A stretch of 8,237 nucleotides of DNA from an uncultured Actinomycetes bacterium (GTDB lineage: Bacteria > Actinomycetota > Thermoleophilia > Solirubrobacterales > Thermoleophilaceae), in the NCBI GenBank assembly GCA_946481495.1, contig CAMLNW010000119.1, positions 1 to 8,237 on the forward strand, written 5' to 3'. The notes under the pieces were generated by a model, which ran no database searches, was not told where the DNA came from, and worked only from the letters and a program-made list of their open reading frames with translations. This document shows, piece after piece, positions 1-8,093 of this stretch. The first letter of the stretch is position 1. Each line of letters starts with the position of its first letter. A program made the position numbers and the translations under genes.

Positions 1-825
1 CCGGTGCTGGAGGCCATCAATCCGCGCGACAAGGCGCCGATCCACGCGGTCTACCTGGGCAAGCCCGGACGCCTGCCGGCGCGGGTGCGGGCGCTCTGCG
101 CACCGCACAGCGGCGTGGGGGCGGACGGCGTGCTGTTGCTCGACCAGCCGACCGCGGACGGCTTCGTCGCGTCGCTGCGGATCTTCAACCCGGACGGCTC
201 CGAAGCCGAGCTATCGGGCAACGGCGTCCGCGAGGCGGTGATGTACCTACGCCGCTCCGGCTGGACCGAGCACGACAGCTTCGGAATCCAGACCGCCGCC
301 GGCGAGATCCGGCCGCGGATCACCGGGCCGACGACCTGCACCGTCGACATGGGGCGGGCAAGGCTGACGTCGAACAGCTACGACGGCCGCGGCACGCTGA
401 CCGCCAACGGCCGCGACTACGACTTCCAATTCGTCTCGATCGGCAACCCGCAGTGCGCGATCGAAGTGCCGGAGGGGTTGGAGGCCCTCGACCTGCCGGC
501 GATCGGGCCGGCGATCGAGCATCACGAGCTGTTTCCCAATCGGACCAACGTCTCGTTCTGGCGGCGCGAGTCCGACAGCTCGATCCGGGCGCGGATCTTC
601 GAGCGTGGTGTCGGCGAGACGATGTCGTCGGGGACCGGCGCGACGGGGGCGGCCGTTGCGGCCGTGCTGCGCGGCCTCGACAGCCCCGTGACCGTCCATC
701 TCGACGGCGGCGACCTCGAGGTCGAGGTGGGGGAGGATCTGCACGTCAACTTGACCGGCTGGGCAGTACCCGTCTACGCGGGTGAGCTGAGCCCTGAATT
801 CCTGGAGGCATTGAGAGAGGCATGA
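1..825 (+). CDS. dapF: Diaminopimelate epimerase, 5'-partial, Ser/Ser active site
   Basis: DapF interconverts L,L- and meso-diaminopimelate in the cytoplasm, supplying lysine and peptidoglycan precursors. The frame is open from the first base, and the usual N-terminal GxGNDF stretch (about a dozen residues) is missing, so the true start lies upstream; the GTG at 4 is only the first start codon inside the window. Counting from that GTG, family motifs are HSGVGADG (35-42), FNPDGSE (61-67), SGNG (71-74), IGNPQ (146-150), NRTNVSFW (179-186) and FERGVGET (199-206), then SSGTGA (208-213). The substrate-binding Asn, Glu-Arg and Gly-Thr positions of the family are kept. Both positions normally held by the catalytic cysteines are serine here: Ser71 (codon 214-216) and Ser209 (codon 628-630). 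The fold and substrate site argue for a real DapF or a close relative; catalysis by Ser/Ser is unproven. It overlaps dapL by ATGA. Confidence 0.9.
   Translation, partial: PVLEAINPRDKAPIHAVYLGKPGRLPARVRALCAPHSGVGADGVLLLDQPTADGFVASLRIFNPDGSEAELSGNGVREAVMYLRRSGWTEHDSFGIQTAAGEIRPRITGPTTCTVDMGRARLTSNSYDGRGTLTANGRDYDFQFVSIGNPQCAIEVPEGLEALDLPAIGPAIEHHELFPNRTNVSFWRRESDSSIRARIFERGVGETMSSGTGATGAAVAAVLRGLDSPVTVHLDGGDLEVEVGEDLHVNLTGWAVPVYAGELSPEFLEALREA
804..820 (+). promoter_or_regulatory. Ribosome-binding region for dapL inside the end of dapF
   Basis: GGAGG at 804-808 lies 13 bases before the dapL ATG (822), and a second purine run, GAGAGG (815-820), lies one base before it. Neither has ideal spacing. 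With the ATGA overlap of stop and start, translational coupling from dapF is the likely way dapL is translated (inference). Confidence 0.45.
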
Positions 826-1988
826 AGACGAGCGCGCGGCTGGACCGCCTGCCCCCGTATCTGTTCGCCGAGCTGGAGCGCAAGATCGCCGACAAGAAGG
901 CGGCCGGCATCGACGTAATCAGCCTCGGCATTGGCGACCCGGATACGCCGACGCCGGCGCTGGTCGTCGACGCGCTCGCGACGGCGGCCGCCGACCCGGG
1001 CACTCATCAGTACCCGTCGAACCGTGGCCGCGCTGAGTATCGGCAAGCGATCGCCGACTTCTACGCGCGCCGCTTCGGCGTGACGCTCGACCCGGAGACC
1101 GAGATCATCCCGGCGCTCGGCGCTAAGGAGTGCGTCTTCAACCTCAACCTCGCCTTCCTCGACCCGGGCAGCGTCGCACTGGCGGCCGATCCCGGCTACC
1201 CGGTCTACACCGGCGGTCCGCTGATCGCCGGCGCCGAGAGCGTGCTGATGCCGCTGGTGCCGGAGCTCGGCTTCGTCCCAGACCTCGACGCGATCCCGTT
1301 CGAGGCGCGCGAGGCGGCGCGGCTGATGTACCTCAACTACCCGAACAACCCGACCGGCGCCGTGGCTCCGGAGGGCTTCTTCGAGCAGGTCGTCGAGTTC
1401 GCCCGTACTCACGACATCCTCGTCGTCCACGACGCCTCCTACACCGAGACGACGTTCGACGGCTACATCGCACCGAGCTTCCTCGAGACGCCGGGCGCCA
1501 AGGATGTTGGCGTCGAGATCTTCTCGCTGTCGAAGGGCTACAACATGACGGGCTGGCGAACGGCGGCGATCGTCGGCAACGCCGAGGCTGTCGCGGCCTA
1601 CTGGAAGCTTAAGACGAACATCGACTCGGGCATGTTCGAGGCGATCCAGCTCGCCGCCGTCGAGGCGCTGTCGGAGCAGGGCGACCAGATCGCGCGCGAC
1701 ATGAGCGCCGTCTACGCCCGCCGCCGCGACCTCGTCGTCGACGCGCTGCGCGCGATCGGCGTCGACGTCCGCTCGCCGCAGGGCACGATCTACGTCTGGG
1801 CGCCGGTCCCCGAGGGCCACACGTCGGCCTCCTACTGCGAGCTCGTGCTCGAGGAATCCGCTGTCGTCGTATCGCCCGGAGGCGCCTACGGCCCCAACGG
1901 CGAGGGCTTCTTCCGCATTTCGCTGACGGTGCCCGACGAGCGCCTCGCCGAGGCGATGGAGCGTCTGCGCGCGAGCCTGGGGGGCTGA
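822..1988 (+). CDS. dapL: LL-diaminopimelate aminotransferase
   Basis: This PLP enzyme (388 aa, the usual length) makes L,L-diaminopimelate directly from tetrahydrodipicolinate and glutamate, bypassing the succinylase or acetylase branches. It is a fold-type I aminotransferase. LGIGDPDTPTP (35-45) is the N-terminal substrate loop. YPSNRGRAEYRQAIADFY (64-81) and ADPGYPVY (122-129) are typical of DapL. NYPNNPTG (172-179) and HDASY (203-207) contact PLP, SLSKGYNMTGWR (235-246) holds the Schiff-base Lys238, and FFRIS (363-367) supplies the carboxylate-binding Arg365. A Gly follows the lysine (SKGY) where many relatives have Thr. The ATG overlaps the dapF stop (ATGA), and DapL's product is DapF's substrate, so the pair forms a pathway operon. 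A general aspartate or alanine aminotransferase is less likely given the DapL-like motifs and the neighbour. Confidence 0.92.
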   Translation: MKTSARLDRLPPYLFAELERKIADKKAAGIDVISLGIGDPDTPTPALVVDALATAAADPGTHQYPSNRGRAEYRQAIADFYARRFGVTLDPETEIIPALGAKECVFNLNLAFLDPGSVALAADPGYPVYTGGPLIAGAESVLMPLVPELGFVPDLDAIPFEAREAARLMYLNYPNNPTGAVAPEGFFEQVVEFARTHDILVVHDASYTETTFDGYIAPSFLETPGAKDVGVEIFSLSKGYNMTGWRTAAIVGNAEAVAAYWKLKTNIDSGMFEAIQLAAVEALSEQGDQIARDMSAVYARRRDLVVDALRAIGVDVRSPQGTIYVWAPVPEGHTSASYCELVLEESAVVVSPGGAYGPNGEGFFRISLTVPDERLAEAMERLRASLGG

Positions 1989-5413: not shown

Positions 5414-7225
<1,812 letters not shown>

Positions 7226-7231
7226 GGTTCA

Positions 7232-7269
7232 GGGGCGCGCTTCCCGCGGGTCCTGTCTCCGATTTTGGT
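7232..7269 (+). repeat. Left 38-bp perfect inverted-repeat arm
   Basis: It starts GGGGCGCGCTTCCCGCGGGT and ends CTCCGATTTTGGT, and is the exact reverse complement of 7533-7570. The arm contains its own short palindrome, CCCGCGGG. The weaker outward extension GGGTTCA (7225-7231) matches GGGATCG on the other side at five of seven positions. Confidence 0.97.
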
Positions 7270-7372
7270 TCACGTGCTCGTTCCTGCGCCGCGAACGCAA
7301 AATCGTCGCCACCCGCGGAGGCACAACATCGGTCCCTGTACAACGAGATGGAGCGTGGTAGGGAGCGCAATG

Positions 7373-7429
7373 GCCTCGAAGGTCGGAACGCTTCGGGCTA
7401 CACAGCAGAAGCGTCTCGACCTTCGAGGC
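7373..7429. repeat. Central hairpin of the palindrome (22-bp stem, 13-base loop)
   Basis: GCCTCGAAGGTCGGAACGCTTC is reported here by position: the left half is 7373-7394 and the right half is 7408-7429. They are complementary except for two adjacent positions (GA against AG). The loop is GGGCTACACAGCA (7395-7407). The stem shares its centre, 7401, with the outer arms, so it is the tip of the same structure rather than an independent repeat. Confidence 0.9.
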
Positions 7430-7532
7430 TCTCTTGCTCCAAACGCCGCCGAGTGGGTGGTACGGGACTCAGCGTTGGCCGCCGCGGGTGGCGACGCATT
7501 TTGCGTCTGGGGCGGAGCTTGCGAGCACCCAG

Positions 7533-7570
7533 ACCAAAATCGGAGACAGGACCCGCGGGAAGCGCGCCCC
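7533..7570 (-). repeat. Right 38-bp perfect inverted-repeat arm
   Basis: It is the exact reverse complement of 7232-7269. Its outward edge lies 13 bases from the last base of the yceD stop codon. Beyond it CGATCCC (7571-7577) and TA (7578-7579) complete the right end of the element. Confidence 0.97.
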
Positions 7571-7583
7571 CGATCCCTAACGC

Positions 7584-8093
7584 CTAGTCCAGCTTCAGCT
7601 CCGACAGCTTGGCCCAGCGAGGATCTGGCTCGGGGTCGTGGGCGTGGTCGAGGTTCTCGTTGAGGTTGGTGCCGCAAACGGTGCAGAGGCCGCGGCAGTC
7701 GTCGTTGCAGAGGATGCGGGTTGGGAGGGCGAGTGCGAGGGCGTCGCGGGCCCAGGCGCTGAGGTCGACGACGTCGTCCTTGACGTAGGGGGAGCGGAGC
7801 TCGACGGAGTCGCCGGGCTGGTCGACCTCGCGGGCGTCGACGTCGACGCGGGCATTCGCGTCCTCGAGGCAGCGGGTGCAGGGGCCGTGCAGGTCGACGG
7901 CGAAGCGGAGGCGCAGCGCGTGGCCGGAGGTGGTGCGGGTGACGTCGAGGCGGGCGTCGGTGTGGCCGCCGGCGCTGTAGGTCTGGGCGCCGAAGGCGAG
8001 CTCCTCGACGGGAACCTCGAATTCGAGCTGACGCGCCTCGCCGGAGGCAAGCCGCAAGGTTCCTACGTCGAACTCGTCAATTCGCTGGGCCAT
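7584..8093 (-). CDS. yceD: YceD/DUF177 family protein
   Basis: The family is linked to 23S rRNA accumulation in E. coli and plants, and is usually encoded just upstream of rpmF (ribosomal protein L32). The 169-aa product starts MAQRIDEFDVGTLRL, has a first Cys pair in PCTRCLE (Cys72, Cys75), and a second cluster LCNDDCRGLCTVCGTNLN with Cys129, Cys133, Cys137 and Cys140, suggesting metal binding. It ends with the family-like DPRWAKLSELKLD. ATG 8093-8091 is supported by AGGG seven bases upstream. rpmF does not follow: the palindromic element begins five bases after the stop. The upstream coiled-coil gene lies 30 bp away on the same strand, so the two are probably one operon. Confidence 0.9.
   Translation of the reverse strand: MAQRIDEFDVGTLRLASGEARQLEFEVPVEELAFGAQTYSAGGHTDARLDVTRTTSGHALRLRFAVDLHGPCTRCLEDANARVDVDAREVDQPGDSVELRSPYVKDDVVDLSAWARDALALALPTRILCNDDCRGLCTVCGTNLNENLDHAHDPEPDPRWAKLSELKLD

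Follow-up and report, generated by a model that had tools for sequence, protein, structure and literature searches.

A 357-bp palindrome with TA ends between convergent genes of a Thermoleophilaceae bacterium, probably a member of a dispersed MITE family

The convergent genes and the palindrome between them

The stretch of DNA that we analysed (8,237 nucleotides, referred to below as the window) carries a palindromic element that fills the gap between the stop codons of two convergent genes, gspE/pilB and yceD. On the plus strand lies the gene for a GspE/PilB-type ATPase (5414-7225, stop codon at 7223-7225, start codon not settled), whose product scores under the NCBIfam cut-offs for PilB and GspE proper and over the Pfam cut-offs for T2SSE and MshEN. 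Its neighbor on the minus strand is yceD (DUF177; 7584-8093, stop codon at 7584-7586), and both frames terminate outside the element or at its edge. We found 6077 YceD homologues; among the best 120 of these, the closest was P0001 (92%), and the three that carry an organism name, P0013 (83%), P0092 (68%), and P0110 (67%), are all Thermoleophilaceae, for which reason we describe the host as Thermoleophilaceae-like. Because 11 of the 13 homologues whose C termini were compared end in KLSELKLD, as the protein of the window does, and the other two (P0012 and P0017) are one residue off, the end of yceD is whole. Elsewhere in the window, dapF adjoins a gene for LL-diaminopimelate aminotransferase (4-1988, plus strand), an arrangement that would suit lysine synthesis by the aminotransferase route. 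A ZIP-like membrane-transporter reading, recognized by eye, is apparently split over two frames (ORFs 2019-2786 on the plus strand and 2317-2694), which points to an indel or a sequencing error.

The element is 357 bp long and runs from TA to TA (7223-7579), with its center at 7401. The left TA (7223-7224), with which the gspE stop codon TAG begins, and the right TA (7578-7579) form a putative target duplication. Terminal inverted repeats at 7223-7269 (plus strand) and 7533-7579 (minus strand) pair without a break over 38 bp (7232-7269 with 7533-7570), and 45 of the 47 outer bases are paired when the outermost 9 bp (7223-7231 and 7571-7579) are included. Further inward, a left-arm motif (7295-7318, plus strand) pairs with a right-arm motif (7482-7506, minus strand) at 96% over 25 positions, and at the apex (7373-7429) a hairpin is formed by 7373-7394 with 7408-7429, in which 20 of 22 bases are paired. 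A repeat search returned inverted pairs at 7214-7280/7522-7588 (85%), 7299-7322/7478-7501 (88%), 7284-7303/7498-7517 (80%), and 7353-7394/7408-7449 (74%). The G+C content of the element is 65%, and that of the window is 70%.

When folded as DNA, the 357 bp form one rod of -154.2 kcal/mol (shuffle mean, -76.7; z = -16.5), and none of 100 shuffles folded as low. The RNA of 7200-7600 also folds into one rod (z = -19.3; 0/100 shuffles as low). In a scan of 357-bp segments taken every 25 bp, the symmetry score peaked at 189.5 for the segment starting at 7226, with a runner-up of 117. The palindrome is real and lies far beyond what chance would give. These results agree with the initial annotation, made from the letters of the window, which had described a 357-bp palindrome centered on 7401 with TA at both ends between convergent genes, perfect 38-bp outer arms, a 22-bp apex, and an RNA that folds as a single rod.

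If the flanks of the window are joined over one TA (...ACTACGGCG-TA-ACGCCTAGT...), the gspE frame ends at an unchanged residue, with TAA as its stop codon. As the element itself begins with TAG, the stop would be preserved upon insertion.

Further copies and the test of their ends

DNA patterns representing the arms, the inner motif, the apex, and the ends were scanned for other copies. Eight GTDB loci matched the exact 18-base arm core; these were alike over 18 to 20 bases only, about 7.5 such matches are expected by chance (with equal base use), and we did not accept them as copies. The GTDB genome scan gave no Thermoleophilia locus with the 18-base arm core, and the end pattern was absent from the 10 loci checked. 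Exact element patterns found no true copy among viral contigs, where a 19-base match (L010) came without the remainder of the element and was likewise rejected; the viral contigs also held no confirmed relatives of YceD or of P0122, a protein described below. A blastn search of plasmids and phages with the whole element found nothing, and Rfam 15 had no match in the window at the gathering score.

Since the DNA scans yielded no true copy, we translated the element and used the translations to search a protein database for spurious reading frames that run across other copies. The first query covered only the left half of the element, in its inward frames, and the second only the left arm on the minus strand, in its outward frames. 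Of the 38 candidates obtained with the first, two had E ≤ 1, P0121 (E = 2.3e-3) and P0122 (E = 6.7e-2); of the 103 obtained with the second, P0123 (E = 5.3e-7) alone had E ≤ 10. These E values are rough, as the queries were composite frames rather than proteins and were run without an unrelated-query control, and the values for P0121 and P0122 are weak if taken alone.

The three proteins come from contigs of very different sizes: P0121 (140 aa) from one of 670 bp, P0123 (106 aa) from one of 1080 bp, and P0122 (241 aa) from one of 345 kb. The outer arm read in P0121 is the right-arm version of the window (PRVLSPILVWVLASSAPDAK, 20/20 residues) and its inner part is the left-arm version (29/37, 59.7 bits), with a second frame at 48.5 bits. 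P0123 reads from the apex outwards to the right end (28/33, 63.2 bits). Sequence resembling the apex was recognized by eye in both. P0122 aligned to the window with 64.3, 63.2, and 50.1 bits, in alignments that extend partly outside the element; compared with the element alone it showed a 42-residue stretch at 71%, and it appears from these alignments to cross the whole element. Past the apex, at about residues 105 to 140, the reading of P0121 departs from the element of the window, which may reflect a truncated or rearranged copy.

In pairwise blastp comparisons of P0121, P0122, and P0123, the better matches fell inside the element and the others reached at most 19.6 bits, and by eye the residues outside the element differ among P0121, P0122, and the window. 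A Pfam scan of the three proteins gave nothing at E ≤ 1; in the window, two ORFs (7265-7663 and 7270-7677) run across the element. Judged by these alignments, P0121, P0122, and P0123 look like chance frames through further copies with other flanks. The dispersed repeat that had been proposed for this locus is thereby supported at the protein level, by three further copies, and the element is thus probably not a single copy conserved at one place in distant relatives, which had been named as a sign of a host regulatory structure.

It is also important to consider the differences between the two arms, for which the initial annotation had offered decay of the middle sections or recent conversion of the ends. 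The inner motif of the left arm is readable in all three proteins, and at positions where the two arms of the window differ, it is the inner left-arm sequence that recurs in P0121, P0122, and P0123. The difference between the arms is thus largely older than the insertion in the window and is a feature of the family, which argues against that earlier explanation. P0122 and P0123 also resemble each other over 38 aa (55%), partly beyond what the window contains. In both, the right-arm spacer seems to be about 90 bp longer than in the copy of the window, a length estimated by eye. Given this likeness in the longer spacer, short and long forms of the element may exist.

For the ends of the copies, we determined where the end motif TAGGGATCGGGG can be encoded, given the residues of each protein. 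In P0121, where we tested 45 offsets, the motif fits without a mismatch at a position that precedes the anchor residues by 23 bases, compared with 24 in each arm of the window. In P0123, with 10 offsets tested, a fit that is again free of mismatches follows the anchor by 8 bases (by eye, the distance in the window is 9), and here the stop codon of the frame itself supplies the TA. For P0122, with 45 offsets per end, the best fits had 2 mismatches at each end, which chance could give; the left end of the window is itself 2 bases off the motif. As controls we used 120 YceD-family proteins in both orientations, giving 120,984 offsets that overlap and come from related proteins and are thus not independent, and among these no fit had 0 mismatches, 0.025% had 1, and 0.41% had 2. 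As perfect fits were seen in P0121 and P0123 and in none of the controls, both proteins carry the TA-bounded end of the window as far as codons tell. The expectation of copies flanked by TA is therefore borne out for one end each of P0121 and P0123, and P0122 fits it only with 2 mismatches per end. Symmetry, folding, and the end motif common to P0121 and P0123 all support the extent given above for the element, and at the level of codons the copies most likely represent a dispersed family ending at TA.

Alternative explanations and the class of the element

It is possible to see the palindrome as a structure of the host, either a bidirectional terminator or an RNase-processed hairpin that ends the two convergent genes and was made or kept by selection at this site. 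The filling of the whole gap between the convergent stops and the single RNA rod are consistent with this, as is the somewhat symmetrical character of the flanks when joined over one TA, a symmetry weakly above background (scores as high at 2/68 other TA sites and at 151/7130 positions). However, the joined flanks do not fold with unusual stability (energies as low for 9/68 TA sites and 1442/7150 42-mers), no T-run terminators were found in 7000-7800, and the sequence recurs beside other flanks, and we consider an origin as a host structure unlikely. The element may act as a terminator after its insertion, and with regard to target choice the symmetry of the flanks is a weak lead only. A symmetry that is almost full-length could also stem from local inverted duplication or an assembly artefact, but many substitutions and indels distinguish the two arms, and sequence of the window's left arm is found again in three proteins encoded on other contigs, so that such an origin is very improbable indeed.

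Alternatively, the element could be a mobile palindrome of another kind, such as REP/BIME-like units mobilized by a Y1 (RAYT) transposase, or a derivative of the IS200/IS605 type, which would spread without target duplication. The arms offer some evidence for this. The inner motif of the left arm weakly resembles the outer repeat in inverted order (score 37; 500 mononucleotide shuffles gave a mean of 23.6 and a maximum of 39), and the right arm gave a score of 40, without a shuffle control of its own; this inverted likeness within an arm is suggestive only. The left arm also folds when taken alone (z = -3.0; 0/200 shuffles as low), but the fold of the right arm is not clear of chance (z = -1.8; 10/200 shuffles as low). 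Moreover, long symmetrical repeats with TA ends fit TA-targeting cut-and-paste transposition better, as judged from general background and PMC2229807, and we regard movement of the REP/BIME or IS200/IS605 kind as improbable.

The explanation that we favor, with a probability of about 0.75, is that of a non-autonomous mobile element (MITE) inserted at TA, most probably by a transposase of the IS630/Tc1-mariner type. Its dispersal, its long inverted repeats with TA at their ends, and the absence of a gene together point to a MITE. The terminal inverted repeats (45/47 bp), the three further copies beside different flanks (at the protein level), and the absence of a transposase gene inside the element are all traits of MITEs, 357 bp being too short for such a gene. 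TA is present at both ends of the element in the window and at one end each in P0121 and P0123, and such TA targeting suggests an IS630/Tc1-mariner-type transposase (general background and PMC2229807). According to the review, most MITEs are shorter than 200 bp and A+T-rich (PMC2229807), and our element, with 357 bp and 65% G+C, is neither. Because YPAL is also described there as not A+T-rich, we take A+T-richness to be usual rather than defining, and the length of the element remains an exception. Neither a natural empty site nor an IS sharing these ends came to light. The initial proposal of a MITE has thus gained dispersal and, in P0121 and P0123, a TA-bounded end, both at the protein level; from these we infer transposition as the means of spread, the type of transposase, and the duplication of TA.

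Under this MITE interpretation, the transposase would be supplied from elsewhere and would most probably be of the IS630/Tc1-mariner kind; it would bind the conserved arms, cut at the ends of the element, and join the element to a TA target, which would be duplicated. At this locus, insertion would have occurred into the TA of an earlier gspE stop codon, presumably the TAA of the joined flanks, after which the frame would end with TAG, and neither convergent gene would be harmed. A by-product may be a strong hairpin, predicted at the 3' end of each of the two convergent transcripts, with a candidate role in termination or RNA stability. A far more specific scenario, which we mention as a long shot, is that Thermoleophilia harbor large "full-palindrome" mobile elements in which each arm carries a transposase-binding motif twice, in inverted order, and the whole long hairpin would be the substrate of transposition, and that these home to the center of dyad-symmetric convergent-gene junctions and replace the terminator there.

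Comparison with known families and significance

Correia, RUP, ERIC, and YPAL elements were compared with ours by description rather than by sequence, as given in PMC2229807, and the same source served for CIR. The Correia/NEMIS elements of Neisseria share TA termini, long terminal inverted repeats (24 bp in Correia), and hairpin RNA with our element, and they occur in forms with and without an internal stretch; their lengths are 107 and 155 bp, in contrast to 357 bp and a G+C-rich composition (65%) here (PMC2229807). RUP of Streptococcus pneumoniae likewise has TA targets and ends, is intergenic, and lacks coding capacity of its own, but it is 107 bp long and has a proposed partner in IS630-Spn1 (PMC2229807), whereas no partner was found for our element. 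Among the intergenic stem-loop repeats of enterobacteria, ERIC/IRU (127 bp) is TA-ended, and YPAL (about 168 bp) is not A+T-rich and has targets that span or adjoin dyad symmetry; both are shorter than our element, and YPAL differs from it further in being described without TA ends and with duplications of 3 to 26 bp (PMC2229807). CIR of Caulobacter and Brucella (about 110 bp) also has TA ends, but it consists of two arms that fold apart and is described without a terminal inverted repeat, whereas the two ends of our element pair with each other (PMC2229807).

Taken together, these comparisons describe a long element (357 bp) that is rich in G+C and palindromic over nearly its whole length, although MITEs as a kind are already known. 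Among literature titles, we found none on such elements in a Thermoleophilaceae-like group, which is weak evidence of absence. The families treated in the review are for the most part those of well-studied pathogens and enterics (PMC2229807). The actinobacterial group to which the host belongs is little cultured. More generally, chance reading frames deposited in protein databases can expose dispersed noncoding repeats when the DNA itself is not searchable.
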